64,000 nucleotides of DNA from Cymodocea nodosa (lineage: Eukaryota; Streptophyta; Magnoliopsida; Alismatales; Cymodoceaceae). The stretch is taken from positions 11,312,501 to 11,376,500 of the forward strand of contig CM072336.1 in NCBI GenBank assembly GCA_036874045.1, read 5' to 3'. The number at the start of each line of letters is the position of its first letter. The first letter of the stretch is position 1. Below, piece after piece: positions 3,421 to 43,264 of this stretch. The position numbers were made by a program, and so were the translations under genes. The notes under the pieces are model-generated. The model ran no database searches. It was not told where the DNA came from and was given only the letters and a program-made list of their open reading frames with translations.

Positions 3421-3425
3421 GTTAG

Positions 3426-6746: not shown

Positions 6747-6754
6747 CTTAGCAA

Positions 6755-8944: not shown

Positions 8945-10310
8945 ATGGAAAAATCAAATATTGAAATTAAGGATAATTTTCCTAATGAACAATTAATGAC
9001 CATTAACACAATACCTTGGTATGCAAACATAGTTAATTATTTAGTTACTAGTTTAACACCTAAGGATTGGAATAGATAGGATAAGAAATTATTTTTCTCG
9101 AGAGTAAAATATTACTATTGGGAAGACCCCTACTTATTTAAGAAATGTCTTGATCTAGTTTTAAGGAGGTGTATTCTAGAAACTGAATATCCGAGCATAT
9201 TATCTTTCTATCATGACCAAGCTTGTGGAGGGCATTTTGGCTCAAGGAAAACTGCTGCAAAAATTCTGCAATGTGGATTTTATTGGCCAACACTATTCAA
9301 AGATGCTCATAAATATTGCTTAAGTTGTTTAAGATGTCAACAAATAGGAAGAATATCAAAGAGGAATATGATGCCTCTTAATCCTATTGTTAAGGTTGAA
9401 ATCTTTGATGTGTGGGGAATAGATTTTATGGGTCTATTTCCTATGTCTAATCAATTTAATTACATATTGTTGGGGGTGGATTATGTATCTAAATGGATAG
9501 AAGTTATTCCTACAAAAACTAATGACAACAAAGTAGTAATACAATTTATAAGAACCAATATATTTGCCAGATTTGGAATACCTAAAGCTATTATTAGTGA
9601 TAGAGGAACTCATTTCTGTAATAGAAGTTTTGAAGCCTTAATGAAGAAATATGGAGTAAACCACAAAATTGCAACATCATATCATCCGCAAACAAGTGGA
9701 CAAGTAGAAAGTACAAACAAACAAATTAAATTAATTTTAGAAAAAGTAGTAAATCCTACTAGAACAGATTGGGCTAATAGATTGATAGATGCACTTTGGA
9801 CTTATAGAACTGCTTATAAAACGAGCTTAGGTATGTCACCTTTTAGGCTAGTATATGGAAAAGGTTGTCATTTACTAGTTGAAATAGAACATAAAGCTTA
9901 TTAGGCATTAAAAACTCTGAACACTAATTTAAATCAAGCTGCTGAAAATATAAAAATGCAATTAATTGAATTAGAAGAATTTAGAAATGAAGCTTATTCG
10001 AAGATTGTAAGAGAAAATGAAATTTTGGCATGATAGGAAAATTATTCCAAAAAGCTTTGAAATAGGACAAAAAGTATATCTTTATATGGCTAGACTCCAT
10101 AACAATCTAGGAAAATTAAGATCTAGATGGGCAGGACCTTACATAATTAGAAATATTTATCCTTATGGAGCTATTGAAATTGAAAATCCTAAAAATCAGA
10201 ATATATTTAAAGTAAATGGACAAAGACTTAGACCTATTCTGAAAACACCAAAAAGCTCCTTTGGAATTATAGAAGAAGTTAGAGTAGAGGACTACTCGAG
10301 CTTTACTTAG
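8945..10310 (+). pseudogene. Athila integrase (fossil)
   Basis: The HHCC zinc region ([14 protein letters not shown] ... [12 protein letters not shown]) lies near 9210-9355. The catalytic core follows: [18 protein letters not shown] and an ...[12 protein letters not shown] block giving the D, D and E positions. The C-terminal region (10017-10310) has the Ty3-typical GKLRSRWAGPYIIRNIYPYG and ends at 10310. No chromodomain is seen, as expected for Athila. Broken, with a few breaks. Confidence 0.85.
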
Positions 10311-10700: not shown

Positions 10701-11215
10701 ACGGATGAGAGAGTAATAGTTAGTTCAAGAAATGACCTGATTACCTGCCTAAACTTAGGGCATATTTAAACTAAAACCTAGGGTTTTGGGGGCATTATCC
10801 AACAAATCATTTAGAATCTAGAACAGTAGAAATTAGAGCGATTTCGTGCTGTTGTGTAACTCCACAATGAGGAAGATGACACTTGAGTTCTGGGAAGATG
10901 TAGTTGACACAACATAGTTTCTAAAGGAATTAGAGAATGGCACACACGGCAAAAGATTCGGAAAAAGACAAGAAGAAAAATAGGCTGAAATTAGTCTGCA
11001 GCCTGTACAAGAAGAAAGAACAGAAATTAGGGCAAAAATTGAATTGCCTGTGACTCCATCCCAATCTATTACAGAATCAGAAAGAACAGTGACAGCAGAT
11101 TGGTAGTCAGGAGGAAGAAGAAAGAGCAGAAAATGAAGAAGAAGCTGAACGAAGCCATTTGGACAAAAATAACTTTACAAATTCCACTGAAGAACAAGAA
11201 ACTCTTTAGCAATTT
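10701..11215 (+). other. Leader of the third ORF, no clear gene
   Basis: The strip before the third ORF is purine-rich from about 10860, with short Glu/Lys/Gln-rich frames on the plus strand. It may be the decayed N-terminal part of the third ORF. No domain is recognised. Confidence 0.4.
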
Positions 11216-12221
11216 ATGGAAAGAATTCAAGGCAAAGTGGAGAGTTCTGCCGGCTCACCACCACAGATAGAAGTAGAAGCAAAAATTCAGGAATCTATAG
11301 AGAATGTTCAAATGCAGCCTATAGTAGAGAAAGATCAAGAACAAACCCCTTTGGAACAACAAAGTCACATTCCTGACCCGACTGAAACAACAGCTCTGAA
11401 TGAGGTACATTTTTGGAGTTAGGAAGCTTATATCAAATATCAAGAGATTAGGGGTTATGATATTATTTACAGTAGACCAGTGAATTGAGATGGAATGCAA
11501 GAAATCAAAGAATTATTTGAATTCCAAGGTCTACTGAATTTTATTTCTCAAGAAAGAGGGCATGCAGTTTATGAGAATTTAGTGCCCTGTTTCTATGCAA
11601 ATTTAAGAGAAGGAGAAGGAAGATTAATTTCCAACGTGGAGGAAGCTAATGTACAGATAACACCAGAGCTTCTCTATAACATTTTTGGATTAAAAAATGA
11701 AGGACTAAAAATTTTGGAAGACAATTGCAGTTGAGTGAATAGAATAGGAAATCAAAGATTGTTTAGCTATCAATCCTAATGTGCATTTATTAAACAGATT
11801 GAAGCATTTAAATGGTAAAGCACACATGGTAGCCAACATTTTGATTAAGAATGTCTATCAATGACAAGGCCATGACATAGAATTGAGTCAATTTGTCAAA
11901 TGGGCCACATTTGCAGTTGTAAATAGAATTCAAATAAATTGGTCTGTAGTTTTTATCTCCAAGCTAAAAATAGTAAAGAAGAAATTATTTTATGGAGATT
12001 TGATTCCACTACTGATGGTGGATTGTATTGATTTCACGAAATGGGCATCAAAAAGAATCAGATCAAGAACCATTTCAGTGAAAGAGTACAGAAATTTTGT
12101 AGCTGCAGAAATAGCTGTACTGTTTGGAGGAATTACAGGAGCTATAGAAAGAATTAATCAATTAGAGCTTCAATTAGAAAAACTCCAGAAGGAAGTAGAT
12201 GAACTTAGGAATAGAGATTAA
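11216..12221 (+). pseudogene. Third ORF of the Athila copy, plant transposon-protein/ATHILA ORF type (fossil)
   Basis: A Glu/Gln-rich start (11216 onward) leads to a segment around HAVYENLVPCFYANLREGEG, then ANVQITPELLYNIFGLKNEG. This follows the pattern of the family called putative plant transposon protein or ATHILA ORF: a stretch with FYANL and later an LxxIFGL motif. A further part (11883-12221) has NRIQINWSVVFISKL and ends in a leucine-heptad coiled coil (INQLELQLEKLQKEVDELR). It sits where envelope-like ORFs lie in Athila elements, but no signal peptide or clear membrane anchor is visible. Broken, with several breaks. Confidence 0.6.
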
Positions 12222-12649
12222 ATTGTATTGTTCGTCTACTTGTATAGAATTGTATGAAAATTGTATGATGTACTTGTAATGTAAATTGATTCATATTAAT
12301 GAATATAAATTTTTTAGATGTACTTCTCATATGTGTTTTGAATGTGAAATGAATGGAATGTATTGAATGTTGTATATATTTTGTGGAACATTATGAATGA
12401 ATGTCTAACAGATTTACAATTTTCTGAATGATAGGATAAATGCTTAAAAATTTCTACATGTTGCAACGTAAAATGTAAATTCTACATAATATAAAATGAC
12501 TTGCAAGTTAAATATTTATATAATGTTTAGATATAAACAAATTTTGATTAGAATGATGCATTAATGACATAGATTTAACTTTATTTCAGTTAGCAGAATG
12601 AAAAAGAAAAAAAAAGTAGAGAGGAACTTACGAGAGTAAACTTAGAGGT
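12222..12649 (+). other. A+T-rich noncoding trailer after the third ORF
   Basis: It is rich in TTGTATGAAATTGTATG-like and gaatgtat repeats and has no reading frame. The same sequence follows the corresponding point of the nested copy (20868-21290), so it is a conserved part of the element. Confidence 0.55.
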
Positions 12650-12845
12650 TGTTAAGTGTTAACTCAACGAAGTATGCTCGTTGAGTTAAACGTAACTCCA
12701 CGAGGTCAGTAATATAATATAAGGTCACTCCGTTGAGTTATTTGTAACTCAATAAAGTTAGTCCGTGGAGTTAGCAACAATAACCAACTTTGTTCTGTTG
12801 AGTTATCCGTAACTCAACGAGGTTAGTTCGTGGATTAAGCAGAAT
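12650..12845 (+). repeat. Cluster of CGTTGAGTTA / TAACTCAACG dyads
   Basis: At least four dyads of the form cgttgagtta-n-taactcaacg, some with tccacgag in place of tcaacgag, are spaced about 45-60 bp apart. The same motif recurs in every LTR (16940-17035, 26190-26280, 44765-44858, 60362-60455) and after pol. The cluster lies directly upstream of the possible internal promoter. Confidence 0.75.
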
Positions 12846-13000
12846 GATTATTCTTTTAACCACGAATGAAACTTCATCAGTTTAGCAGTTACCAAAATTT
12901 GAAATTAGTAGTGGTACACGTACCCATAAAAATAGGAACCATGATGTACATTGCAAGACACGTTCTTGCAAAGAGATTTATTCATTTTATGGATGTGCAT

Positions 13001-13012
13001 TATATATATAAA
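13001..13012 (+). promoter_or_regulatory. Possible internal TATA box for the F-box transcript
   Basis: TATATATATAAA lies about 110 bp upstream of an ATG (13124) that opens a short first-exon-like frame. It is downstream of the dyad cluster. The nested copy has a similar tatatatat run at 21642-21650. Promoter activity is inferred; the family LTR has its own TATA box. Confidence 0.35.
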
Positions 13013-13123: not shown

Positions 13124-13141
13124 ATGGAAAGCTTCAGACTG
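13124..13141 (+). other. Possible short first coding exon of the F-box unit
   Basis: An ATG at 13124 opens six codons that end exactly at a consensus splice donor (G|GTATGT at 13141/13142). In the nested copy the same six codons (21767-21784) run directly into sequence matching 14695 of this copy, with no intervening segment. That copy comparison is the main support for calling it an exon. Confidence 0.5.
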
Positions 13142-14694
13142 GTATGTAATTAATCATCTGTTATTTATTTATGAGCACATGGACTCCTTCTCTAAGCACT
13201 AAACGATTAGTAAGAACATCTACCCAGGAATTTTCATTGCAAAGGAGTACTGAAAAATTTTCTGAACTAAACTTTAACAAAATTCTTTGAGGTGTAGCTA
13301 ACCTTTCTTTAAAAGAGAACGTAGAGATGACTGCTCCAATAGAAAAACCATTAGGAGAAATTCTGTATCCTGAATTAGTTGATGAACCTTCATGTATTCA
13401 ATTGCCAAACTTTAAGGGAGATAAGTTTGAACTGAAATCTAATTATATTAGTCAATTGCCACATTTTCATGGATTAGAAAGAGAGGATGCCTATTATTTC
13501 CTTAGAGAATTTAATGAAGTTTGTCAAATGATGAAAATGTAGAACATGAGTATAGATGCTATTAAACTTAGATATATCCCTTTTTCTTTAAAAGACACAG
13601 CTAAGAGATGATTGTATACTTTGTCGCCTGATTCAATTTCTACATGAACTGAATTTTACTTTGTTTTTCTAGAAAAAATATTATCCAACACATCAAACGA
13701 TTAAAAAGAAAAAAGAAATATTAATGTGTAGCCAAAAACAGGGTGAATCATTTTGGAAATATTTTGAAAGATTTAAAGATTTACTAACTCAATGTCCACA
13801 TCATGCAATGAGTAAAGCACAACTAATAGGTATAATTTATGAAAGCATAGATGTTTCAACGAAATCTTTATTAGAATCTACTTGTCAAAATGGATTTTTA
13901 AAATTATGTAGTGAAGAAGCATGGGCATATTTAGAAAACTTTGCAAAAAAAACTACACAGTGGGAAAACTCAACTGAAGCTATTGTAGATAAAAAAGTAC
14001 TGCCAAGAGGAATGCATGAAATAGATTCAAGTACTATGCTTTAGGTGAAATTAATTGAATTAACAAAGAAAATAGAAGAGTTATCATTAAATCAAAAGCT
14101 AGCAGAAAAGAATGCAAACATAAATGATTTAGATATTATTTATGCTAGAAACCAGAGAGATAACTTGGGAAATTCTTATAATCCTAGTTGGAGAAATCAC
14201 TCGAATTTATCTTAGAGAAACAACAATTTCCAGGGAGGAGAAAATGTAAATGAGAAGAATATAAGTTATGAAGCATTACTGGAACAAGGATCTAGAATAG
14301 AGAAATTAGAAAAGATAATCCAACAATTAAACAATCGTCTAGATTTTGTATTTGGAAATACTACAACTCAAAATCAGAATAGAAATATACCACTTAGACA
14401 GAAGAAACTAATGGAAGTTAGACCTACTGAAGGATTGCCAATACAAGCAATACCTAATCCTATCAATAGAACGGTTAATGACATTGATACCTTTCTGGGA
14501 GGGTAGCTGAATGAAACAACATATCTGAAGCAACTATCTGTATATATATATGTTTTTATTTATAGTTAATAGTATCGTAGAGTTAGTCCTTAACACAACG
14601 AACTTAGTCTGTTGAGTTATGCCTTAACTCCACGAGGGTGTGCAGTAGTTATGTTAATTTTTGTCTCTGCTAAATTTTTGTTTGTGTTATACAG
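13142..14694 (+). other. Intron-like GT...AG segment containing the Gag capsid half
   Basis: The left border is GTATGTAATT and the right border is TTTGTGTTATACAG, a T-rich tract ending in CAG. The related nested copy lacks exactly this segment, and the codon phase either side of the borders is the same. This is what a copy made from spliced RNA would look like. Splicing is documented in other plant Ty3 elements (Ogre; subgenomic envelope RNA of BAGY-2). The alternative is that the segment was gained by the outer copy through a precise insertion; no target-site duplication was noticed. Confidence 0.55.
13327..14506 (+). pseudogene. Athila Gag, capsid half, displaced downstream of pol (fossil)
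   Basis: The start contains the Athila capsid pattern CIQLPNFKGDKFELKSNYI, then LPHFHGLEREDAYYFLREF. Next come QGESFWKYFERFKDLLTQCPHH and an EEAWAYLENFAKKTTQW block, which are standard Retrotrans_gag features. A NSYNPSWRNHSN segment and a coiled coil follow (EQGSRIEKLEKIIQQLNNRL). The zinc knuckle that normally sits between capsid and NPSWRNH is not in this part; one is present at the start of the 5' ORF instead. Broken, with several breaks. It lies wholly inside the intron-like segment. Confidence 0.75.
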
Positions 14695-15439
14695 AATCGA
14701 CAAATGGAATTGATGCAATTACTGTTGGATGCACTAAGGGAAGTACTAAGTAATTTATCAGCTAAAGATCTGTGCAGGTTGTGTTGTGTATCAAAGGAAA
14801 TTAAAGACTATATTGAAGAAAAATATTTTCAGGGACTACAAGCTGTAAAAATGACTAAGATTAGAGATGGATTCATATGGAGGTCATTTAATCGTAGTTC
14901 AATTAACCATGAATATCTGGCTCTGGAAGAAACTACTAGAATTTCACCCAATACATTAGAAGGAATAGATCATATTATGGGGATAGATGAATGATTCATC
15001 ATATACAGGACAAGACCAAGGTATGCAAGTCTATTACCTGATATTTTGATAAGAAATCCTATAACAAAAGAAGAATGGTATATAGGAAGACCCAATAGAT
15101 ATGAAGTACCAACTATAAATTGTGGATCGGCTTTAATATTTTCTGATAAAAATTCTACAATTCCTGAAAAATTATATTATTGGAGACTTACAGAAAATTG
15201 GGGTGAATGTTTACGCTTAAGTGTGTATAATTTTCTGAATAGATTTTGGAATGAAAATATTATGATATATCTAGGACAGAAATCATTAATTAACCAAACA
15301 CATGTCATACTTGATGGATATGTATATCTAGTCACAGATATATTAATAGCATTTGGATCTGATTTATACATAGTGAGCATAGACAGTTATAATGAAAATA
15401 TATAAATTTTACCTATACCGAGAGAAATAGCTAAACCAC
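14695..15439 (+). pseudogene. F-box protein gene carried by the Athila element, 5' part (outer copy)
   Basis: The N-terminus has a recognisable F-box: REVLSNLSAKDLCRLCCVSK, then KDYIEEKYF, close to the LP..L...L....L..VC+.W pattern. Downstream is an F-box-associated style repeat, PDILIRNPITKEEWYIGRPN, and a beta-rich C-terminal region. F-box proteins normally join SKP1-Cullin ubiquitin ligases and choose substrates. The frame is interrupted at 15440 by the nested Athila copy and resumes at 26554. It lies between the Gag capsid part and the 3' LTR, and the same gene is in the nested copy and the third copy. The origin is probably capture of a host gene. Broken, with a couple of breaks besides the insertion. 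Confidence 0.7.
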
Positions 15440-17303
15440 TGTTTAGAATGAAAAAGTGCATATTATTAACGGTTAAATAATGGTTAATTACATAATATTT
15501 AGCTTACCATATGAGAATTAAGCCATTATGTTATAATTGCACTGTTATATGCTTTAATTGAAGAATTTGCTTAATTTTAAGGAATTAATGTTAATTTAGT
15601 ACATTTATGAACTGTCGGTAAGTTGCAGGTTGTGAAATTCTTAAGTATCCGAATTTTTTGATATTTCGATAGTTATGTTTAACATATCGAACAAATTCGG
15701 ACAGTTATGTTTAACAAACCGAATATGCATCGGATAGTTAGACCTGTAACTCTCCGAAATGTTATTTTATGTTTAAACTGCTGCTGACACGTGTCGAGAT
15801 CTAGTAGATTTACTTAAGTTATAACTCGTTAAGTTAGCATAACTGCATGCATTGAGTTACATAAATATACACTAAGGTAACGTGTTAGGTTAGCAACTTA
15901 TTTCTTTATTGCATGTATTTTATAGTTATTTTCCAAAATGCCACTGTAACGGTTGCAGGAACAAACAGTTGGAAGGAAAAACCATGTTTGCACGTATCAC
16001 GCAGGAATTCAATCGTGCATGGAAAAGGAAGCATCATCGTTGATCTAAGGGAAGGAAATCCAACCGATCATTCAAGTAGAAGCAGTTACTACTAAAGAAA
16101 TATAAAAGAAAAGAAGAAAAAAAGAAGAAAGTGTGATCGATGGACGGCCAGTGTATACAGAGGAGGAGCACTAAGCTTTTTGCAGACAGTATAGGCGATT
16201 CTCCGAAGTATCACACCAACCATCGTTATCACCACCATAATCACCAATCATCAGAGGTCTGTGAGGATACTTGCCTGATGTTTGGTCAATTCCGAGTCAA
16301 ACACAGTGCTTGATAACCACTGTGAGGAGTGATCGCGTCGCGGGAAGGGAAGCCATTTTCGCCAAGCGCCAACTCATATTTCAGGAGATCATAAAGCTTT
16401 TACCCTTGGCTTCAGGTTGATGCCTGTATACTAAAGAGGAGATTATCTTGCAATTCTGGACTCGCGATTCTATAGGGAGAGGAGACAAAATTGTAAGTGG
16501 TTTAATTTTCAATGGTGTAATCGCGTTGCAAGTAGTGTCGGAAGTATTTACTGTCAAGTGAGATTACTTTACATTTCACCTTTCGCCCATTTCCATGTTC
16601 ACATCAAAACAAAAATACCAAAAACAATTTATCTTTGTTTGTATGTTGTATTTAAGTGTTGTATTATTTGTGTTGTATCGTGATTAATGTTATCTGTATC
16701 AGTTTTATGATTATTTTATGTTAGTTTTAATTTTACAATTTACTGAAATTGGTTCGTACAAAAAACTTAAAGATTTTAATGGTTACTGTTTGAATCATCT
16801 GAATGTTAGTATTGCTTAATGATAAATCCAATGTTAACTAGCATTAAAAGCTTAATTGATGTTATTTACAATCTGTGGAATCGCCCAATGGTTGGCCAAA
16901 TTCCTCTATAAATAGTAGTATTATAAAGAAGAGACAGGCTCGTAGAGTTAACATAAGTCCACGAGGATAGTCCGTTGAGTTAGCCATAACTTAACGAACT
17001 TAGTCCGTTGAGTTAACTGTAACTCAACGGAGTGCTTATTGAATATAAATTTGAATACTTCAAAATCAAACATTTCTTAAATTCGTCAGAAATTCCCTAT
17101 GGGATCGACCTATACTTGCACACTAATACAATAGACACTGTACACTTGCAGTTAAAGTACAAATTGGAATTAATATCTTAATTGTATTAAAGGTTGTTTG
17201 TTTACTTCTAAAAGAAAGAATAGGCATAAAGATAAATTAACTAAGTAAAAATAGAAGTAACAAATCCATGTTTTTCTAGTGTAGTGGTGGGAAAACCCAA
17301 ACA
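15440..17303 (+). repeat. 5' LTR of the nested Athila copy
   Basis: It starts TGTTTAGAATG and ends CCCAAACA. A TATA box lies at 16907-16914 and dyad repeats at 16940-17035. A GTAAGT follows gagacaaaatt near 16492. Confidence 0.9.
16907..16914 (+). promoter_or_regulatory. LTR promoter TATA box
   Basis: TATAAATA stands in the context tcctcTATAAATAG, with ccaatgg about 20 bp upstream as a CAAT-like box. It is conserved in the LTRs at 26152-26159, 44730-44737 and, on the minus strand, 60478-60485. It places the LTR transcription start about 1.5 kb into the LTR. Confidence 0.7.
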
Positions 17304-17310
17304 AGTTTTA

Positions 17311-17328
17311 TGGTGCCGTTGCTGGGGA
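17311..17328 (+). other. Primer binding site (tRNA-Asp), nested copy
   Basis: TGGTGCCGTTGCTGGGGA lies 7 bp after the LTR end. It is a slightly decayed form of the tRNA-Asp primer site of the outer copy. GAATT repeats follow it. Confidence 0.85.
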
Positions 17329-17442
17329 ATTGAATTGAATTGAGTCGAAGTGAATTGAATTGAATTGAATAGATATAAGCAACTGTTAGAGCTGTTTTAT
17401 TTTAATAGCCAGAGTTGTGTGTTTTCTTCTGTAATTGAGAAT

Positions 17443-18371
17443 ATGGCATATGCTTATGCTCAAAGATTTCTGAAACCTTTAATTAGCATATGTGAATTCT
17501 GCAATTCTAAAGGACACGACATTTCTGATTGTTTGAAATTGAGACATTTACAGATTGTTAGATCTCATGAACAACAAATGAATTATCCTCAATATAATAC
17601 AGCCGAGTATGAGAATCCTATAGTTTACCCAACTGATGGTCAGTATAGAATGTGTAATATGATGAGAAACACTGAAGTTTAGGATAGCTATGACAGACTA
17701 GAGCATAGTATAGAGCAAAATCTGGACAAACTGGAATACTTTGTGTGTCAACAACAATAAGTCAACTGATTAAACTATAGAGAGGCATATTCAGAACCTA
17801 AACAGGATATAATTTACGAAACTGAAAAGGCCATAAAGAAAATTGATCAAAAATTGAATGCAATGAAATTAGATGATCTGGAAACAAAATTAAAAGCATT
17901 AGACAAAAATGCAATGAAAATACAAGTTTTGCAACAGGACAATGAAAATTATAATGTTATAAACCTGCACAACTTGCAAAATATACAACAAACAGAAAAC
18001 ACAAATGTAAGAGAATTTAAAGAATGCACTTTAAAACTAAAAACAATTGAAGATCATAATCATGAAAATGATATACAAAAACATCATGAAAGTAACGAAA
18101 ATCTGGAATATGTATGTGTAACATTAAGATCTGGAACTGATATACCACCAAGAACTCAAAATGAAAATGATATGAAGGTGGACAAGAGTAAAAATCAAAA
18201 TGATAATGAAAATGTAATAGCTGAAAATCTAGAAATCACTGAAGAACAATCTGAATCTGCAATTGAAGCTAAAAATGATCAAACAAATCAACTGAAAGAA
18301 AAAGAGTCTTTGAAATCAAAATCTTTAGCACCCTATCCTGAAAGATTACAACAAACAATTCCTGAAAAATA
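17443..18371 (+). pseudogene. Athila Gag, nucleocapsid and C-terminal half (nested copy, fossil)
   Basis: It shows the same layout as the outer copy: MAYAYAQRFLKP, CCHC knuckle CEFCNSKGHDISDC, Asn/Glu-rich coiled region, VTLRSGTDIPPRTQ, then PYPERLQQTIPEK. It also begins without a capsid domain, which shows that the split layout is inherited and not an accident of the outer copy. Broken, with a few breaks. Confidence 0.78.
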
Positions 18372-18499
18372 AGAAAAAATTAGAGAAATTTTTGAAAAAG
18401 TATAAGTTAACATTCCTTTGTTAGATCTATTGCAGAATATGTCACCTTGTGCTAAATTTCTGAAGGATTGATGTACTAAGAAAAGAGAGCGAAAAGTTC

Positions 18500-20249
18500 T
18501 TAGAAAGGTCTTTTTAGCTGAGCAAAGTAGTTCCCTATTTCTGCCACAAATTCCTAAAAAGTTATCTGATCCTGGAATCCCTGTTATATCATGCACCATA
18601 GGAAATACCATTCTAGAAAGAACCTTAATAGACTTAGGTGCAGGTATAAATGTTATGCCAAGTGATATATTTGCATCCTTAGGATTAGAAGGCTTAACTC
18701 CTACTAGTACGGTTATTCAATTAGCTGATAGAAGTATAAGATACCCTAGAGGAAAAATAGAGGATGTCTTAATTAAAATCAAGAATTTTATATATCCTAT
18801 TGATATTGTAATTTTGGATTCCCAACAAATTAAGCATAAAAATAGTGATACATCTTTAATTTTGGGAAGACCATTTTTAGCAACATCAGGAGCTGTTATA
18901 AATTGTAAAACTAGAGTAATGAAGTTAGCATATGGTAATGAGGATACTTAATTAAATACTTTCAAACCAGAAAGGTTTGAGGAGTTAGAAATGTCCTTAC
19001 ATACCATAGACTTTTTAGAGGATGAAGGAGATATGTTAGATGATGTGATTCAAGAAGAATTAAATAGGCAAATCAATTCTAAAACTTTAGAGGAAAGTGA
19101 AAGCATAAATATAGAAGGAGATCGGGAAGAAATTAATTTAAAAAATGATGATGTTCAATTAGGAGCTCTAGCTTCTGATGGGCAGCATTTAGAATTAAAA
19201 CTTTTACCTCCTGAATTAACCTATATATTTCTAGAAGATAAACGGACTTGTCCAATCATAATTGCTTCAGATTTAAAAGAGGATCAAATAGCTAAATTAA
19301 AAGATGTAGTAAAAAGTTATAAAGAAGCAATAGGATGGACTATGACTGATATAAAAGGATTAAGTTCAACTTTATGCTGTCACCGCATATATTTAGAAGA
19401 GAATGCTAAACCTATTAGAATTCCTGAGAGGAGATTAAATCCAAACCTTAAAGAAGTAGTCAGGAAGGAAATAGTTAAATGGTTAGATAATGATATAATT
19501 TATCCGATTTCTAATAGCTCGTGGGTTAGTCCAATCCATGTAGTTCCCAAGAAATCAGGATTAACAGTTATTAGGAATGAAAGTCAAGACTTGATACCTA
19601 CTAGAATTCAATCAGGCTGGAGAGTATGTATAAACTATAGAAAGCTGAATGCTGTGACTAGGAAAGATCATTTTCCCTTACCTTTATAGATCAAATGCTG
19701 GAAAGATTAGCAGGACAAGAATATTTTTGTTTCCTAGACGGGTATTCAGGGTATAATCAAATTCCAGTAGCATTAGAGGATCAAGAGAAAACAACTTTCA
19801 CCTGTCCTAATGGAACTTATGCTTTTAAAAGAATGCCATTCGGATTATGCAATGCGCCAGCTACCTTTCAAAGGTGTGTGTAGGGCATATTTACTGGAAT
19901 GACTGAAGAATTTTTAGAAATATTTATGGATGATTTTACTATAAGAGAAAAAGAGAAAATTAAATTCTGGCATGATAGAAAAATTATTCCTAAAAGCTTT
20001 GAAATAGTACAAGTATATATTTATATGGCTAGACTCCATAACCATCTAGGAAAATTAAGATCTAGATGGGCAGGACCTTACATAGTTTGAAATGTTTATC
20101 CCTATGGAGCTATTGAAATTGAAAATCCTAAAAATCAGAATATATTTAAAGTAAATGGACAAAGACTTAAACCTATTCTGAAAACACCAAAAAGCTCCTT
20201 TGCAATTATAGAAGAAGTCAGAGTAGAGGACTACTCGAGCTTTACTTAG
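18500..20249 (+). pseudogene. Athila pol remnants (nested copy, fossil)
   Basis: The protease (LIDLGAGINVMP at about 18630, [10 protein letters not shown]) and the first part of reverse transcriptase ([22 protein letters not shown]) are recognisable. The integrase C-terminal block (GKLRSRWAGPYIV) ends at 20249. Most of the middle of pol is absent. It is more than 90 percent similar to the outer copy by eye. Broken. Confidence 0.8.
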
Positions 20250-20267
20250 TAAGAAATCAGTTTTTAT

Positions 20268-20301
<34 letters not shown>

Positions 20302-20820
20302 CATTAAAAATATATATAAAACATAAAAATAGTTGTGGTTCAACTGACTGGATCTATCGGTATGACCGAAACATTAAAACAATTGTATATTAATTTTCAG
20401 AAAAAAATATTGGTTTTACCGAAACATAGTATCAGTTCAACCGAAAGAAAAATAAAAAAATAAAAAATATTTAGGTTTGACTGAAGCATAGTATCGGTTA
20501 AACCAGCAAAAAAATTGTATATTAATTTTCAGAAAAAAAATATTGGTTTTACCGAAACATTGTATCGGTTCAACCGAAAGAAAAATAAAAAAAATAAAAA
20601 ATATTTAGGTCTGACCGAAGCATAGTATCGGTTAAACCGGTAAAAAAACAAAAAAACTATTCTCTGTAATATTTTTATTATTATATTTGCTTGTACGAGG
20701 AGTCCGTTGAGTTACGCTTAACTCAACGAGCTTACTCCATTGAGTCTTGAGTTAGTCAACGAGCTTATTCCGTTGAGTTAACTGTAACTCAACAGAGTAC
20801 TGTAGCTAAGACCTAAAATT
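20250..20820 (+). repeat. Post-pol palindrome and TA-repeat block (nested copy)
   Basis: A TA microsatellite (20268-20300) is followed by a duplicated unit of about 160 bp. Each unit holds TCGGTTCAACCGA-type palindromes and the run ggtttgactgaagcatagtatcggttaaaccg. CGTTGAGTTA dyads follow at 20695-20790. The repeats are longer here than at 10385-10690. Confidence 0.7.
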
Positions 20821-21784
20821 AGAAAAACTCTAGAAGGAAGTAGATGAATTTAGGCATAGAGATTAAATTGTATTGTTCGTCTACTTGTGTAAAATTGTAT
20901 GAAATTGTATGGTGTACTTGTAATGTAATTGATTCATATTAATGAATATAATTTTTCAGATGCAATTTTCATACGTATTTGGATGTGAAATGAATGAAAT
21001 TTATTGAATATTATGTAATTTGTGGAACTTTATGAATATGTAACAGATTTACAATTTGCTGAATGACAGGATAACTGCTTAAAAATTTCTGCATGTTATA
21101 AGGTAAAATGTAAATTCTGCATAACATAAAATGACCTGCAAGTTAAATCTTTATATAATGTTCAGATTTAAATATATTTTAATCAAAATGAGGCATTAAT
21201 GACATAGATTTAACTTTATTACAGTTAGCAAAATGAAAAACAAAGAAAAAAAAATAGAATAAAAAACTTACGAGAGTGAAACTTAGAAGTTGCCAAGTGT
21301 TAACTTAACGAAGTAAGTCCGTTGAGTTAACCGTAACTCCACGAGGTCAGTAATATAATATAAGGTCACTCCGTTGAGTTATCTGTAACTCAACGAAGTT
21401 AGTCCATGGAGTTAGCAATAGTAACCGACTGTGTTCTGTTGAGTAATCTGTAACTCAACGAGGTTAGTTCGTGGATTAAGCAGAACGGTTATTCTTTCAA
21501 CCACAAATGAAACTTCGTTAGTTTAGCGGTTACCAAAATTTGAAATTAGTAGTGGTACACATACCCATAAAAATAGGAACCACGATGCACGTTGCAAGAC
21601 ACGTTCTTACAACGAGATTTATTCACTTTATGGATGCGTAGTATATATATGAAACAGAATGTTATTTACGAGTTACCAGTACTTTTAAAAGAAAGGAGAA
21701 AGTGTTGGAGGAACTGGAAGGAGAAGCAGCTAATTCAACCTTCATCCGACAACAAATATTTATAGAATGGAAAGCTTCAGACTA
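20821..21784 (+). other. Noncoding leader of the F-box unit (nested copy)
   Basis: It matches 12165-13141 of the outer copy: the end of the third ORF, the A+T trailer, four dyads (21300-21475), a TATA-like tatatatat (21642-21650) and the six codons before the splice donor. From 21785 it continues with sequence equal to 14695 of the outer copy. Confidence 0.6.
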
Positions 21785-22933
21785 AATCGACAAATAGAAT
21801 TAATGTAATTACCGTTGGATGCACTAAGGGAAATACTAAGTAACTTGTCAGCTAAAGATCTGTGTAGACTGTGTTGTGTATCAAAGGAAATTAAAGACTG
21901 TATTGAAGAAAAATATTTTCAGGGACTACAAGCTGCAAAAATGACTAAGATTAGAGATGGATTCATATGTAGGTCATTTAATCGTAGTTCAAATACCCAT
22001 GAATATCTGGCTATGGAAGAAACTACTAGAATTCCACCCAATGCATTAGAAGGAATGAGTCATATTATGGGAATAGATGAAGGATTAATCATATACAAGA
22101 TGAGACCAAGGTATGCAAGTTTATCATTACCTGATATTTTGATAAGAAATCCTATAACAGGAGAAGAATGGAATATAGGAAGACCTAATAGATTTGAAGC
22201 ACCAACTGTAAATTGTGGGTCAGCTTTAATATTTTCTGATAAAAATTCTACAATTCCTGAAAAATTATATTATTAGAGACTTATAGGAAATTGGGGTGAA
22301 GATTTACACTTAAGTGTGTATAATTTTCTGAACAGATATTGGAATGAAAACATTATAATATATCTAGGACAGAAATCATTAATTAACCAAACACATGTCA
22401 TACTTGATGGATATATCTATTTAGTCACGGAGATATCATTAGCATATGGATCTGATTTATACATAGTAAGCATAGACAGTTATGATGATTATATAGAAAT
22501 TTTACCTATACCGAGTGAAATAGCTAAACCACCATCTGCAGAATTTATTGAAATTCAAATAGGAATGTGGTATAATGAAGAAGATGATCCTACTTTATGT
22601 CTGATAAGATGGTGGGATGAACTGATGAAATTTCAAATATGGATTATGGAAGACACGAATGAATGGAAGTGGGAAGAGAAGTATATTGAAATAGATGTAG
22701 AAATAGAAACTGCTACATTACCTTGGAACCAAAAAGGATCCCTTGCTGCATTACATATCATTAATGGTAATACACTCATATTTGGAATTTATAATATATT
22801 ACATGTTTACAAATTAAAAAGGAACAAGAACTGCATTAAAATAGAATTAATAGCAAGAAGAACTATGCCTAAAAAGTTTGCTTGGACTGATACATTTATT
22901 CCATTTGTTTCTACTTTTCAATCATGTTCTTAA
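21785..22933 (+). pseudogene. F-box protein gene carried by the Athila element (nested copy)
   Basis: This copy is not split by an insertion and shows the full layout, about 380 codons. The F-box lies near the start (REILSNLSAKDLCRLCCVSK, EEKYF) and the F-box-associated segment (PDILIRNPITGEEWNIGRPN) around codon 120. The C-terminal half is beta-rich and acidic (WWDELMKFQIWIMEDTNEWK, TLPWNQKGSLAALHI, LIARRTMPKKFAWTD) and ends FQSCS at 22933. Most differences from the other copies look silent or conservative by eye, and long stretches remain open. A beta-propeller-like substrate domain is a reasonable guess for the C-terminus. Broken, with about two or three breaks. Confidence 0.7.
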
Positions 22934-24670
22934 GCTGTGATTTTGTGTGTTTAACGTTGTGTATTCTGCATTTATTTTTAGAGAAAAAAAAAAAAAATTT
23001 GAAGTTTTCATGTTCATTTTATAAAAAAAAAAACAAACAAAATAAAATATCAATCCAGTTTGTTGGTATCTGTTCTGGAAGCTAACTGGCTTGCTTGTGA
23101 GCCACCAAAGGTATAGGAGCCTGGGTTCCACACAAGACACTAATTTATTAATATATGTTAAATGTTATTTTGTTTTATATTCTATGTTTATCTGGGAATG
23201 AAAAGTTTTTCAGAATCAAAAATTGGAATATGCATAAAGAGATACAAATGGAACAAGGTATGTAACCAATTACTTATCCTAAATTTTAAATCAAACAAAA
23301 CTTTATTCATGCCTGCTACAATTACTGTACTTATTGTCAAATCTTTTACATTGAGGACAATGCAAAATGTAGGTATGGGGGAGAGGTAATTAAAGTAACA
23401 GCCATGTAAGTTTGTTAATTAAAGGAATTAAAATGGTACTGCAAAGTTTTGAGGAAATTGAAAATTTTTATGAACTTGCTGTAACTATCCGATAATTGAG
23501 ACTGTAAAATTTTTATAAACTGCTTGAATGTTATATTTAGAAGGCTATAGAAGATGTTATAGAATTTATTATTTATGTAAATCTAGATATAGTATCTTAT
23601 GATTTTTCTGAATTTCATGAGTTTAACAGTTTCACAATTTTAAAATGAAATCAGAATATTTAATGCTTAATCAGAAAATTATCTGAAGTCCTAAAGGAGC
23701 TGAGATGTGAATTCTAGATTAAATGAAACACATATGACGAAAGATACATTTACTTTGACTGATTGGACTTGTACAATGATTTATGTGTAGATCTTATTAA
23801 ACTACAGATAAAGTATGAGCTTATTGTTATGGATTCATATTTTTAATAAATGATAGAAGCAGTATTATATGAGATTGGTGTTTTACTGCATCTGTATTAA
23901 TGAAATACATGCATATACAGTATGTGATTAATGCTTTGTTTTGTGTGTGCATTTACTTTTAGAAAAAAAAAAAAAAACTTTGATTGTTTATTAACTTGTT
24001 TGATCACGAGCCTTTTGTACTTGAGGAGATAGGTATGTAAGGATTGTTGACCTGAAAAAGGACTCTGAAAATCTGGCAACCTAAGATCCTGATTAGATTT
24101 GGGATTGTTGACTAAAAGCTCGTTACATGGGTACATTAGAAAGCTCTTGTTTGATTCAAGCTTGTCAAATTAACTTTTAAAGTACACAAAAAAAAAAAAA
24201 CATATATTGTTCTGAAAAGATACAATTGTTTTGTGAAATACAGATATCTTATGAATCGAGTATATTTTTTGGTATCTAGAATTGCAAAAATATGAATCTG
24301 GAATTGACTTTTGAAGTTGTTTAATGGAAATACAATTCTTTATTCTACTTGTCTTAATCAGATTGAATTGGATTGCACTTTGATTCGTATGTTGTTGAAA
24401 TTTCTTCTAGAAAACTTATTTGAAAATTCAAGATTATAGATGATGAAAAGAAGAACAAACGATAATATAATTAACACCTATATGAAGATGATATACTTTG
24501 TATGTAATTTACATATATTCTAAATATCTTTACAGGTTGATTACTGAAACATACAAAATATATGTTTATGCTGAACAGAAGAAAAAAAACAAAAGGGGAA
24601 GAATTAATTCTAGCACTTTTTGAAAGACAAATTAATTAGACCTTAGTTTGCTAAGGGACTAGCAAAATTT
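22934..24670 (+). other. Conserved 3' noncoding tail of the Athila family (nested copy)
   Basis: A+T-rich with poly-A runs (22983-22997, 23963-23977, 24188-24200) and no coding frame. It contains gaggacaatgcaaaatgt followed by a second polypurine run, aggtatgggggagagg (23371-23386), about 1.3 kb before the true tract. The same tail is at 26955-28718 and, on the minus strand, 62000-63726. Confidence 0.6.
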
Positions 24671-24684
24671 AGGTATGGGGGAAG
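24671..24684 (+). other. Polypurine tract of the nested Athila copy
   Basis: AGGTATGGGGGAAG lies directly before the TG of the 3' LTR at 24685. It serves as plus-strand primer in LTR elements. Confidence 0.85.
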
Positions 24685-26548
24685 TGTTTAGAATGAAAAA
24701 GTGTATATTATTAACGGTTAAATGATGGTTAATTGCATAATATTTAGCTTATCATATCAGAATTAAGCCATTATGTTATAATTGCACTGTTATATGCCTT
24801 AATTGAAGAATCTGCTTAATTTTGGGGAATTAATGTTAATTTAGTACATTTATGAACTGTCGGTAAGTTGCAGGCTGTGAAATTCTTAAGTATCCGAATT
24901 TTCTGATATTTCGACAGTTATGTTTAACATATCGAACAAATTTGGACAGTTATGTTTAACAGACTGAATATGCATCGGATAGTTAGACCTGTAACTCTTC
25001 GAAATGTTATTTTATGTTTAAACTGCTATTGACACGTGTCGAGATCTGGTAGATTTACTTAAGTTATAACTCGTTAAGTTAGCATAACTGCACGCGTTGA
25101 GTTACACGAATATACACTAAGGTAACGCGTTAGGTTAGCGGCTTATTTCTTTATTGCATGTATTTTATAGTTATTTTCCAAAATGCCACTATGGCGGTTG
25201 CAGGAATAGATAGTTGGAAGGAAAAACCATGTTTGCACGTATCACACAGGAATTTAATCCTGCATGGAGAAGGAAGCATCGTCGTTGATCTGAAGGAAGG
25301 AAATCCAACCAATCATTCAAGTAGAAGCAATTACTAATGAAGAAATATAAAAGAAAAGAAAAAAAGAAGAAGAAAGTGTGATCGATGGATGGCCAGTGTA
25401 TACACAGGAGGAACACCGAGCTTTCTGCAGATAGTATCGGCGATTCTACGAAGTATCACACCAACCATCGTTATCACCACCATAATCACCAATGATCGGA
25501 GGTCTGTGATGATACTTGCCTGATGTCGGGTTGATTCCGAGCCAAACACAATGCATGACAACTACTGTGAGGAGTGATTGCGCCGCAGGAAGGGAAGCCA
25601 TTTTCACCAAGCACCGACTCATATTTCAGGAGATCGTAAAGCTTTTAGCCTTGGCTTCGGGTTGATGCCTGTATGCTGAAGAGGAGATCATCTTGCAATT
25701 CTGGACTCGCGATTCTATAGGGAGAGGAGACAGAATTGTAAGTGGTTTAATTTTCAGTGGTGTAATCGCGTTGCAAGTAGTGTCGGAAGTATTTACTGTC
25801 AAGTGAGATTACTTTACATTTCACCTTTCGCCCATTTCCATGTTCACATCAAAACAAAAATATCAAAAACAATTTATCTTTGTTTGTATGTTGTATTTGA
25901 GTGTTGTATTGTTTGTATTGTATCGTGATTAATGTTATCTGTATCAATTTTATGATTGTTTTATGTTAGTTTTAATTTTACAGTTTACTGAAATTGGTTC
26001 GTACAAAAAACTTAAAGATTTTAATGGTTACTGTTTGAATCATCTGAATGTTAGTATTGCTTAATGATAAATCCAATGTTAACTAGCATTAAAAGCTTAA
26101 TTGATGTTATTTACAATCTGTGGAATCGCCCAATGGTTGGCCAAATTCCTCTATAAATAGTAGTATTATAAAGAAGAGACAGGCTCGTAGAGTTAACTTA
26201 AGTCCACGAGGATAGTCCGTTGAGTTAGCCATAACTTAACGAACTTAGTCTGTTGAGTTAACTATAACTCAACGGAGTGCTTATTGAATATAAATTTGAA
26301 TAGTTCACAATCAAACATTTCTTAAATTCGTTAGAAATTCCCTATGGGATCGACCTGTACTTGCACACTAATACAATAGACACTGTGCACTTGCAGTTAA
26401 AGTACAAATTGGAATTAATATCTAAATTGTATTAAAGGTTGTTTGTTTACTTCTAAAAAAAAGAATAGGCATAAAGATAAATTAACTAAGTAAAAATAGA
26501 AGTAACAAATCTAAGTTTTTCTAGTGTAGTGCTGGGAAAACTCAATCA
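24685..26548 (+). repeat. 3' LTR of the nested Athila copy
   Basis: 1864 bp, the same length as its 5' LTR. It ends CTCAATCA followed by the duplication ACCAC. TATA box at 26152-26159. Confidence 0.9.
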
Positions 26549-26553
26549 ACCAC

Positions 26554-26954
26554 CATCTGCAGAATTTAATAAAATTCAAATAAGAATGTGGTATAATGAA
26601 GATGATGATCCTACTTTATGTCTGATAAGATGGTGGGATGAACTGATGAAATTTCAAATATGGATTATGAAAGACATAAATGAGTGGAAGTGGGAAGAAG
26701 AATATATTGAAATAGATGTAGAAATAGAAACTGCTACATTACCCTGGAACCAAAAAGGATCCCTTTCTGCATTTCATATCATTAATGGTAATACACTTGT
26801 ATTTGGAATTTATAATATATTACATGTCTACAAATTAAGAAGGAACAAGAACTACATTAAAATAGAATTAATAGCAAGAAGAACTATACCTAAAAAGTTT
26901 GCTTGGACTGACATGTTTATTCCATTTGTTCCTACTTTTCAATCATGTTCTTAA
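26554..26954 (+). pseudogene. F-box protein gene, 3' part (outer copy, resumed after the nested insertion)
   Basis: It continues the frame interrupted at 15439, with WWDELMKFQIWIMKDINEWK, TLPWNQKGSLSAFHI and the FQSCS end at 26954. About 133 codons are open to the end. Comparison with 22530-22933 shows about 90 percent identity. Confidence 0.75.
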
Positions 26955-28718
26955 GCTGTGACTTTGTGTGTTTAATATTGTGTGTATTCTGCATTTATTT
27001 AAAAAAAAAAAAAGAAAAAAGAAAAAAATTTAGTTTTCATTTGTATTTTATAAAAAAAACAAAAAAACAAAATATCAATCCAGTTTGTTGGTATCTATTC
27101 TGGAAAACCAACTAGCTTGCTTGTGAGCCACTAAAGGCATAGAAGCCTAGGTTCCACACAAGACACTGATTTATTAATATCTATTAAATGTTATTTTGTT
27201 TTATATTCTACTTTTATCTGTGAATGAAAAGTGTTTCAGAATAAAAAATCAGAATATGCAGAAGAAGATACAAATGAAACAAGGTATGTAACTGATTACT
27301 TATCTTGAATTTTAAATCAAAGAAACTGTATTCATGCCTGCTACAATTACTGTATTTATTGTCAAATCTTTTACATTGAGGACAATGCAAAATGTAGGTA
27401 TGGGGGGGAGGTAATTAAGGTAACAGCGATGTAAGTTTGTTAATTAAAGGAATTAAAATGGTACTGCAAAGTTTTGTGGAAATTGAAAATTTTTATGAAC
27501 TTGCTGTAACTATCTGATAATTGAGACTATAAAATTTATATAAAATGTAATTGCTTGAATGTTATATTTAGAAGGTTATATAAGATGCTATAGAATTTAC
27601 TATTTATGCAAATCTAGATATAGTATCTTATGTTTTTTCTGAATTTCATGAGTTTAACAGTTTCACAATTTTAAAATGAAATCAAAATGCTTAATGAAAA
27701 ATCAATAAATTATCTGAAGTCCTGAAGGACCTGAGATGTGAATTCTAGATTAAATGAAACACATATGATTAAAGATACATTTAATTTGACTGATTGAACT
27801 TGTAGAATGATTTATGTGTAGATCTTATTAAACTATTGAAAAAAGTATGAGCTTATTGTTATAGATTCATATTTTCAGTAAATGATAGAAGCAAGACTAT
27901 ATTAGATTGGTGATTACTACATTTGTATTAATGAAATACGTACATATATAGTCTGTGATTAATGCTTTGTTTTGTGTGTATTTTGATTGAAAAAAAAAAT
28001 AAAAAAATTTGAGAGTTTATTGACTTATTTGATCACGAGCCTTTTGTACTTGAGCAGATAGGTATGTAAAGATTGTTGACCTAAAAAAGGACTATTGAAA
28101 TCTGGCAACCTAATATCCTAATTAGATATGGCATTGTTGACTGAAAGCTCGTTACATGGGTACATTAGAAAGCTCTTGTATGATTCAAGCTCGTCAAATT
28201 AACTTTTAAAGTACAAAAAAAAAACATATACTGTTTTGAAAAGATACAAGTGTTTTGTGAAATACAGATATCTTATGAATCGAGTATATTTTTTGTTATC
28301 TAGAATTGCTGAAATATGAATCTGGAATTGACTTTTGAAGTTGTTTTAATGGAGATAAAATTCTTTATTCTACTTGTCTTAATCATATTGAATTGGATTG
28401 TACTTTGATTCGTATGTTGTTGAAATTTCTTCTAGAAAACTTATTGAAAAATTCAAGATGACAGATGATGAAAAGAAGAACAAACGATAATATAATTAAC
28501 ACCTATGTAATGATGATATACTTTGTATGTAATTTACATATATTCTAAGTATATTTGCAGGTTGATTACTGAAACATATAGAATATATATTCTTATGCTG
28601 AACAGAAGAAAAAAGAAAGAGGAAGAATTAATTCTAACACTTTTAGAAAGACCAATTAATTAGATCTTAGAAAGACCAATTAATTAGATCTTAGTTTGCT
28701 AAGGGACTAGCAAAATTT
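26955..28718 (+). other. Conserved 3' noncoding tail (outer copy)
   Basis: Same content as 22934-24670: poly-A runs, the gaggacaatgcaaaatgt box and a second polypurine run at 27396-27411. A short duplicated stretch (gaccaattaattagatctta) lies near 28650-28690. No gene is visible. Confidence 0.6.
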
Positions 28719-28732
28719 AGGTATGGGGGAAG
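28719..28732 (+). other. Polypurine tract of the outer Athila copy
   Basis: AGGTATGGGGGAAG stands immediately before the 3' LTR. Confidence 0.85.
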
Positions 28733-30793
28733 TGTTTAGAATGAAAAAGTGCATATTATTAACGGTTAAATGATGGTTAATTGCATAATATTTAGCTTAT
28801 CATATGAGAATTAAGCCATTATGTTATAATTGCACTGTTATATGTTTTAATTAAAGAATCTGCTTAGATTGGGGGAATTAATGTCAATTTAGTACATTTT
28901 TGAACTGTCGGTAAGTTGCAGGCTATGAAATTCTTAAGTATCTAAATTTTCTGATATTTCGGACAATTATGTTTAACATACCGAACATGTATCAGATAAT
29001 TATGTTTAAATTATCGAACAATTATGTTTTAAAAGAATATTTTATTATTTTCTGAAATACATGTGTCAAAACCATAATGCATGACTTAAGTGGACTTTCG
29101 GTGAGTTATCTATAACTATTTGAAATTGCAACTGGGCATCGGACAGTTATATGTGTAACTCTCCAAAATCTCTTTTTATTTATAAAATAGTTGTGGACAC
29201 GTGTCGTATTCTAGGAAAGTGACTTAAGTGGATTTTCAGTGAGTTATCTTTAACTATCCGAAATGCATCTGAGCATCGGATAGTTAGACCTGTAACTCTC
29301 CGAAATGTTTCTTTTATTATTAAATTGTTGCTGACACGTGTCGAGATCTAGTAGATTTACTTAAGTTATATATCGATGAGTTATTTGTAACTATCCGAAA
29401 TGCATCTGAGCATCGGATAGTTAAGTTTATAAGTATTCGAAATACATCTGAGCATCAGATAGTTAAATTTATGCACGTGTTTTATAGTTAAATCAACAAA
29501 GAAAGTCTGTTGAGTTATCTGTAACTCCACAGACTATTTATTTTCTAATATGCTACTATAGCGGTTGCAGGAACAGACAGTTGGAAGAAAAAAACCATGA
29601 TCGCAGGTATCACGTAGGAATTCACTCGTCGAAGGGAGAATAAATCATCGTCGTTGATATAAATGAAGGAAATCCAACCGACCATTCAAGTAGAAGTAGT
29701 TACCATTGAAGAAATATAAAAGAAAAGAAGAAAAAGAAGTAAAGGGTGTGTGATCGATGGATGGCCAGTGTGTACAGAGGAGGAGCACCGAACTTTCTAC
29801 AGGCAGTATCGGCAATTCTCCAAAGTACCATATCAACCTTCGTTACCATCACCACAATCACCAACCATCGGAGGTCTATGAGGGAAGCCATTTTCACCAA
29901 GCGCCGACTCATATTTCAAGAGATCGTAAAGATTCTAGCCTTGGCTTCAGGTTGATGCCTGTATGCTGAAGAGGAGATCATCTTGCAATTCTAGACTCGC
30001 GATTCTATAGGGAGAGGAGACAGAATTGTAAGTGGTTTAATTTTCAGTGGTGTAATCGCGTTGTATGTAGTGACAGAAGTATTTACTATCGACTAAGATT
30101 ACTTTACATTTTACCTTTCACCCATTTCCATGTTCATATTAAAACAAAAATACCAAAAACAATTTATCTATGTTTGTATGTTGTATTTGAGTGTTATATT
30201 GTTTGTATTGTATCGTGATTAATATTATCTTTACCAGTATTGTGATTGTTTTATGTTAGTTTTAGTTTTACAATTTACTGAAATTGGTTCGTTCAAAAGA
30301 CTTAAAAATTTTAATGATTATTGTTTGAATTATCTGAATGTTAGTATGTTTAATGATAAATCCAATGTTTACTAACATTAAAGAGCTTAATTGATGTTAT
30401 TTACAATTTGTGGAATCGCCCAATGGTTGGCCAAATTCCTCTGTAAATAGCAGTATTAAAAAGAAAAGACAGGCTCGTGGAGTTAACTTTGTCCGTTGAG
30501 TTAATTGTAATTCAACGGAGAGCTTATTTAATATATAAATTTGATTGTTAACAAGCAGACAGTTCTCAACTCTTAAGCAATTTCCTGTGAGATCGACCTA
30601 TACTTGCACACTGATACAATAGACATTGTGCACTTGCAGTTAAAGTACAAATTAAAATTAATATCTAAATTGTATTAAAGGTTGTTTGTTTACTTCTAAA
30701 AGAAAAAGAATAAGCATAAAGATAAATTAACTAAGTAAAAATAGTAGTAACAAATCCAAGTTTTTCTAGTGTAGTGTTGGGAAAATCCAAACA
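28733..30793 (+). repeat. 3' LTR of the outer Athila copy
   Basis: It starts TGTTTAGAATG and ends TCCAAACA, followed by the duplication GTTAG. It shares with the 5' LTR the longer U3 variant (repeats of catcggatagtta at 29270-29465) that is missing from the nested and solo LTRs. The family therefore has at least two LTR subtypes. Confidence 0.9.
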
Positions 30794-31116: not shown

Positions 31117-31320
31117 TTCACAACCATCATCATCATCATCATCAATAATTGATTATAATGTATTTGATGATGAATATAGTCATTTTAATGTAACAAATAG
31201 GAAAGAATTAAAGAATTTTAATAATACTAATCATAGGTATTTAACCTGATTTTCTAAATTTTGCTGTAATAAATTGGTGGAAACACATAAAAACACACAT
31301 TTCCTATTTTATCATTAATA

Positions 31321-31524
31321 GCTAGAGAATTACTAATAATTCCAACTTCTTCTATAACATGTGAATAAATATTTAGTATTAGTGGTAATATATTAGATGA
31401 TAGAAGAGTAAGATTAAAAGATAATATTTTAGAAACATTAATGTGTGTTAAAGATTGAGAGTTTGTTTGTGGACAGCAGAAAGATGATTTTATTGATGAA
31501 TTTACAAATTTAAATATTTAAATA
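31321..31524 (+). pseudogene. hAT transposase C-terminal dimerisation domain, remnant
   Basis: Translation from 31321 gives ARELLIIPTSSITCE, a stop, IFSISGNILDDRRVRLKDN, then ILETLMCVKD, a stop and EFVCGQQKDDFIDEF. This matches the hAT family C-terminal dimerisation domain (usual pattern A..LL.IP.SS...ER.FS..G.I....R.RL....LE.L+....W). The two in-frame stops fall where the conserved Ser/Arg and Trp normally sit. Nothing of the N-terminal zinc finger or catalytic core was found, so the element is non-autonomous. Confidence 0.8.
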
Positions 31525-43259: not shown

Positions 43260-43264
43260 TTGGC

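Follow-up and report, generated by a model that had tools for sequence, protein, structure and literature searches.

A probable family-owned F-box gene with capsid gag in its intron in an Athila-like retrotransposon family of Cymodocea nodosa

We analysed a 64,000-nucleotide stretch of the Cymodocea nodosa genome (assembly GCA_036874045.1, contig CM072336.1, positions 11,312,501 to 11,376,500 of the forward strand; hereafter the window), in which several members of one long terminal repeat (LTR) retrotransposon family carry an F-box gene. The sequences are best explained, with a probability of roughly 75%, by a high-copy Athila-like Ty3/gypsy family that would make capsid from unspliced RNA and an F-box protein from spliced RNA, and whose F-box gene would be a component of its own. 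Directly readable in the DNA are the two exons of the gene, its intron, the position of gag, the base-exact loss of the intron in 6 of 30 loci and the constraint on the reading frame.

The F-box gene and its gag-bearing intron

Self-comparison of the window revealed four insertions of the family: an outer element, a nested element that sits inside the F-box gene of the outer one and splits it, a minus-strand element cut off by the window end, and a solo LTR. The original prediction had assigned the same gene, at the same place, to the first three of these, and all three copies lie where it had put them. Its placement between the third open reading frame (ORF) and the 3' tail also stands, but in the outer copy 1,553 bases of intron with the capsid gag, which the prediction had not set apart, lie between the third ORF and the F-box exon. 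The parts of the gene are as follows.

13124 to 13141, plus strand: last coding bases of exon 1, ATGGAAAGCTTCAGACTG, ahead of the donor (sequence comparison)
13142 to 14694, plus strand: GT-AG intron of the F-box gene, 1,553 bases, absent exactly from the nested copy
13171 to 14506, plus strand: capsid gag ORF inside the intron (PF03732, E=1.6e-9, in 13673-14041), with stops and one frameshift in the outer copy
14695 to 15439, plus strand: first part of F-box exon 2 in the outer copy, which the nested element interrupts
26555 to 26954, plus strand: F-box exon 2 of the outer copy, second part (sequence comparison)
21767 to 21784, plus strand: end of exon 1 in the nested copy, joined straight to exon 2 with no intron (sequence comparison)
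21785 to 22933, plus strand: F-box exon 2 of the nested copy (ORF and profile search)
63727 to 64000, minus strand: C-terminal part of the F-box gene in the minus-strand copy, cut by the window end

The intron edges of the outer copy read CTG/GTATGT on the left and TTTGTTTGTGTTATACAG/AATCG on the right, and by a simple ad hoc score edges this good occur at fractions of 0.00064 (donor) and 0.00014 (acceptor) of the window positions. Once the intron is spliced out, the exon-1 ATG at 13124 is in frame with the F-box. The capsid gag of the outer copy lies downstream of pol and integrase, and the 5' ORF of both window copies has a zinc knuckle shortly after the primer site and no capsid. These signals are also kept elsewhere in the genome: the donor position could be read in 36 copies, of which 31 have intron letters, GTATGT in all 31, and the other five have none, as intronless copies would. 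The acceptor AG is kept in 43 of 51 copies, the exon-1 ATG in 34 of 36 and the gag ATG in 28 of 31. The intron looks native to the element because the GTTGAGTTA/TAACTCAAC motif found in it at 14611 recurs in the LTRs and noncoding parts of the family.

The F-box predicted near the start of the product was recovered by profile search, PF00646 scoring 39.6 bits in the nested copy (E=4e-10) and 34 bits in the outer copy (E=2.4e-8) against a gathering cut-off of 20.5. It was also found in 8 of 8 genomic copies scanned (E=2e-10 to 2e-8; 34-41 bits overall, window copies included), which were open copies of 381-382 codons taken from those without stops. The F-box-associated segment claimed together with it is weaker: in the window neither TIGR01640 (F_box_assoc_1; E=4.6e-6) nor FBA_1 (E=0.027) reached its curated cut-off, FBA_3 was weak, and TIGR01640 matched the same eight genomic copies at E=3e-6 to 3e-5 (23-27 bits overall, window included, cut-off 37.9). 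Two in-frame stops lie in each of the outer and nested copies, at no common position, and a single 3-base indel separates the two over 1147 aligned bases.

The AlphaFold model of the F-box C-terminal piece had a pLDDT of 33, too low for the model to be used. The PDB gave no match for the F-box N-terminal piece or for one genomic exon-2 protein, and IMG/VR gave none. Two F-box pieces returned no hit at E<=0.001 from the protein database, where the pieces restricted candidate lengths and left full-length host F-box proteins largely out of reach; no donor gene emerged from this search.

Distribution of the gene across the host genome

The search covered 374.6 Mb in 28 contigs. With the F-box C-terminal piece we obtained 5772 first-look candidates, which are not copy counts; 150 were scored, all with at least 90% identity to the query, and 30 loci were fetched (L001-L030). 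The gag DNA query gave 4343 candidates (40 scored, 30 loci fetched) and the tail query 5672 (40 scored, 12 of those 40 places fetched).

The original prediction had made the status of the gene depend on whether most other copies lack it. They do not: the F-box end is present in 12 of 12 tail-chosen copies, and exon 2 lies downstream of gag in 29 of 30 gag-chosen loci, a few of them cut by later insertions or deletions. The remaining locus, L047, lacks exon 2 and has an LTR inserted at that place. Third-ORF sequence and exon 1 were found upstream of gag in all 30 gag-chosen loci. We count a captured gene as part of a family when it holds one position in most sampled copies and is under constraint; this gene does hold a fixed position in the copies sampled, and the changes that they share are constrained (see below), in agreement with the earlier suggestion that it became a family component.

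Among the 30 F-box loci, the intron or part of it lies beside exon 2 in 23 and the exact spliced junction in 6, and L019 is cut before the junction. Within the 23, the intron carries internal deletions in L002 and L014, is without its acceptor end in L010, and is represented only by its 3' part in L013 and L018. Eight stretches upstream of gag copies were also inspected: linker, protease and reverse transcriptase were found in five, L062 had LTR, knuckle and linker, L067 reverse transcriptase and L068 LTR only, and no capsid match better than E=0.87 appeared in any of the eight. In L062, L081, L082 and L084 the knuckle region follows the LTR end within about 140 bases, with no capsid, whereas L083 and L085 are rearranged and uninformative on the 5' layout. 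Overall, two 5' ends could be read in the window and four in the genome, and each of these six has a zinc knuckle only and no capsid.

Two variants were seen among these copies. One F-box copy (contig C14, 12142608-12143261) lies in an open frame of 677 residues, against the usual 389 or less, and an in-frame 3-base deletion in exon 2 is common to 9 of 25 gag-chosen copies (L032-L060) and may mark a subfamily.

Constraint on the F-box frame

Changes among 53 copies were divided into those seen in a single copy and those shared between copies. With all change types included, the ratio of nonsynonymous to synonymous change (w) was 1.07 for single-copy changes and 0.49 for shared ones (p=4e-5). 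C>T and G>A were then set aside because both recur. Without them there were 42 silent, 172 nonsynonymous and 17 stop changes in single copies, and 32 silent, 58 nonsynonymous and 1 stop among the shared changes. Per site, the nonsynonymous/synonymous and stop/synonymous ratios were 0.49 and 0.10 for shared changes and 1.11 and 1.36 for single-copy changes (Fisher p=0.0018; p=0.0029 in the gag-chosen copies alone), and two noncoding controls were flat (p=0.87 and 0.68). The bias toward silent sites, on which the prediction had also made the status of the gene depend, is therefore present in shared changes.

Indels agree with this pattern. The F-box has 16 frameshift-size indels in single copies (5 in set A, 11 in set B) and none that is shared, whereas 22 of 61 are shared in the noncoding tail and 10 of 20 in the upstream part (set B alone, p=0.005). 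The gag pieces had w of 0.42, 0.33 and 0.67 for shared changes against 0.43, 0.84 and 1.15 for single-copy ones, the difference being significant in one of the three. For the outer and nested elements, the comparison of the protease-reverse transcriptase (PRO-RT) region gave w 0.35 (P=0.007). In-frame stops are absent from 20 of the 53 sampled F-box copies, and 33 have at least one. The copies indicate that selection kept the F-box frame while the family was jumping and that it decays after insertion. A further test, against the change spectrum of the tail itself (27 copies; 1 shared stop against 15.2 expected), was set aside because its copies were picked by protein score.

Recurrent loss of the intron

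Precisely this intron is missing from six of the 30 F-box copies, among them the nested copy of the window. To account for these six, the exon-2 tree built from 53 copies requires five changes, of which well-supported branches force at least three; the six were united in 0% of 200 bootstrap trees, and a single intronless clade was rejected (AU p=0.0004). The tree made from the tails of 29 copies, whose bootstrap had not settled, requires six changes and likewise rejects a single clade (p=2e-34). Since the intronless copies form no single clade, spliced RNA was probably reverse-transcribed more than once, and two or more intron-loss events are likely, not proven.

Alternatively, the intron was lost a single time, and the resulting junction reached several lineages by template switching or gene conversion. 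In support of this, five of the six intronless copies are 94.3-96.5% alike in the region upstream of the junction, and recombination among Athila families is documented (passages of PMC2410132). The sixth copy, L015, is only 91.4-92.6% like those five in the same region, and both trees reject the one clade, so that we consider a single origin possible but rather unlikely.

Proposed mechanism and alternative explanations

F-box proteins mark other proteins for destruction. In the mechanism that we propose, RNA running through the F-box region would yield capsid if unspliced and the F-box protein if spliced, and the 3' unit would have its own promoter. Spliced full-length RNA would at times be packaged and reverse-transcribed. 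Like other F-box proteins, the product would join an SKP1-CUL1 (SCF) ubiquitin ligase, its C-terminus bringing the substrate. The original prediction had offered a role against host defence as speculation; in our reading a host silencing or defence factor is a tentative candidate for this substrate, the proteins of the element itself are a more doubtful one, and the remaining weight goes to another host protein. We give about even odds to a stronger form, a retrovirus-style split genome in which the 5' ORF would encode nucleocapsid and pol, and the 3' unit would give capsid from unspliced RNA and an SCF substrate receptor from spliced RNA. If this were true, a single choice at the splicing step would set the element either to assemble particles or to exert control through ubiquitin, and spliced RNA slipping into particles would leave intronless copies as its record.

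The position of capsid gag and F-box makes them alternative products of a single RNA region, which is compatible with an F-box protein that regulates the products of the element, for example Gag turnover, the splice choice setting particle output. The precedents in viruses concern host factors (polerovirus P0 and ARGONAUTE1, abstract of PMC6593998), and we regard such self-regulation as doubtful. Less probable still is a passenger, that is, a host F-box gene caught by chance by an ancestral copy and carried along without function. LTR captures are common and many decay, according to the relevant part of PMC3726574, and the stops in 33 of 53 copies, as well as the window copies taken alone (see below), would suit it; the difference between shared and single-copy changes with flat controls and the absence of any shared frameshift-size indel among the 53 copies speak against it, which leaves it improbable. 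A chance deletion or insertion whose edges merely resemble splice sites has next to nothing in its favour as the source of the 1.55-kb difference: the nested copy does hold two other large deletions, not GT-AG, but here the edges score as splice sites, the same exact junction recurs in 6 of 30 loci, and gag is in place in 30 of 30 gag loci.

Several points weigh against the explanation that we prefer, a family whose F-box gene is its own and is expressed by splicing. The outer and nested F-box copies alone give w 0.56, where neutral simulation has a median of 0.77 (0.49-1.30), and this P=0.10 is too weak to decide. With all change types, w in the noncoding tail, read in an arbitrary frame, also drops from 0.84 to 0.55 (p=0.08), and 12 of the shared F-box changes are stops, which are probably recurrent C>T or G>A. 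Restricted to indels outside simple runs and pooled, the contrast (0 of 13 against 11 of 38) reaches only p=0.046. The fetched copies are the best matches to window queries (from the outer copy) and no random sample, and L001-L030, picked by protein score, favour open copies. Recombination between copies might produce a pattern that looks like repeated loss of the intron, the F-box-associated match does not reach its curated cut-off, and a TATA-like motif is all that speaks for a promoter of the 3' unit. The splice choice and the F-box protein themselves are predicted here from sequence.

Other features of the window

The remaining parts of the elements are the following.

3424 to 5558, plus strand: 5' LTR of the outer element (self-comparison and ends; target duplication GTTAG)
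5566 to 5582, plus strand: primer binding site of the outer element, TGGCGCCGTTGCCGGGG, separated by 7 bases from its 5' LTR
5604 to 5819, plus strand: zinc knuckle, CX2CX4HX4C, with which the 5' ORF begins, without capsid (Pfam zf-CCHC_2 only E=0.072)
6027 to 8944, plus strand: linker, protease region, reverse transcriptase and RNase H (profile and ORF reading)
9368 to 9904, plus strand: integrase core (PF00665, 9.4e-16), the frame with the C-terminal part continuing to about 10309 after a shift
10871 to 12222, plus strand: third ORF (env-like position), decayed (PF20167 only E=0.018)
13001 to 13007, plus strand: TATA-like motif ahead of exon 1, present in 36 of 36 readable leaders
15440 to 17304, plus strand: 5' LTR of the nested element (self-comparison and ends; target duplication ACCAC)
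22934 to 24684, plus strand: 3' tail of the nested copy (self-comparison)
24685 to 26549, plus strand: 3' LTR of the nested element (self-comparison and ends)
26955 to 28730, plus strand: 3' tail of the outer copy, purine-rich at its end (self-comparison)
28731 to 30793, plus strand: 3' LTR of the outer element (self-comparison and ends)
60088 to 63726, minus strand: 3' tail and 3' LTR (LTR = 60088-61987) of the minus-strand copy (self-comparison)

The two LTRs are 93.5% identical in the outer element (1258 aligned bases) and 94.5% in the nested one. In the outer pol, reverse transcriptase and RNase H (PF00078, PF17917/PF17919) precede integrase (PF00665), and the protease motif is DLGVGINVMP in the outer copy and DLGAGINVMP in the nested copy. 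The TGGCGCCGTTGCCGGGG primer site is putatively of the tRNA-Asp type. The two further large deletions of the nested copy take out its integrase and third ORF, and were ruled out as introns by their edges, which are not GT-AG. The solo LTR lies at 43264-45126 with the target duplication TTGGC.

In the window the two forms of the GTTGAGTTA/TAACTCAAC motif number 22 and 15, where about 0.4 would be expected for each. The motif is often an imperfect palindrome, is located in LTRs and noncoding internal parts (for example 12660-12850, 20700-20800 and the intron at 14611), and may serve the family as a binding site or hairpin. The flanks of the outer element (2558-3162 and 31191-31941) are about 80-83% alike, perhaps from an older surrounding element, and a minisatellite lies at 3017-3350. 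A protein kinase gene with one interruption (33692-34906; PF00069, 4e-42) and a RING finger gene (53298-54086; PF13639, 1e-14) are likely host genes. Another retroelement is the probable source of the ORFs beside the minus-strand copy at 57028-59647, which have a CCHC zinc knuckle (PF00098, 2.9e-5). Rfam gave no match anywhere in the window.

Comparison with known systems

The reverse transcriptase matched plant elements in the database at 43-69% identity, with no lineage labels. The family resembles Athila, Calypso and Diaspora, as far as the relevant parts of PMC1142308 and PMC2410132 describe them, in the order of reverse transcriptase, RNase H and integrase, the CX2CX4HX4C knuckle, the long LTRs, and an extra coding region after pol. 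It also has a primer site of presumed tRNA-Asp type a few bases after the LTR, which would match the account of Calypso and Diaspora in PMC1142308. In the three known groups gag and pol share one ORF with gag first (the same part of PMC1142308), whereas here the capsid gag comes after integrase, inside an intron, and an F-box gene is added. Of the predicted Athila-type assignment, the Ty3/gypsy pol order was retained but the usual gag-first layout was not, and we write Athila-like because the capsid gag follows integrase in 30 of 30 gag loci and is missing from the six readable 5' ends.

Plant LTR elements often have additional ORFs of varied kinds between pol and the 3' LTR (passages of PMC7264820 and PMC6317226), and our family shares with these elements a sense ORF at that position; for one of them, barley Bagy2, splicing is reported. 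The searched main text of PMC7264820 does not name F-box, and PMC6317226 was searched on other terms only. Among the matches listed in open-licence literature there was no Athila element with an F-box gene, as the prediction had supposed, and no gag behind integrase, although the supplement of PMC6317226 may hold an F-box entry.

The nearest parallel to a maintained capture is a Phalaenopsis Ty3/gypsy family (PMC9289625, in the part that treats it), where a host-type domain is likewise fixed in an LTR family through several replication rounds; the domain there is another one, a captured 2-ODD m6A demethylase, and that part tells of no intron or displaced gag. Polerovirus P0 is also an F-box-type protein of a genetic parasite of plants, by analogy and not by kinship. 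It differs in belonging to an RNA virus and in having an F-box-like motif that targets ARGONAUTE1, where our family has a full Pfam F-box, and the role of its SKP1 binding is described as still under study in the abstract of PMC6593998.

As far as our searches of open-licence literature tell, a plant LTR family with a maintained F-box gene, or with an intronic capsid gag behind integrase, is new. The repeated base-exact loss of the intron would be a natural record of reverse-transcribed spliced retroelement RNA, a route proposed for the loss of env in the corresponding passage of PMC1142308, and the family offers a directly testable case of a plant retroelement that uses the ubiquitin system.

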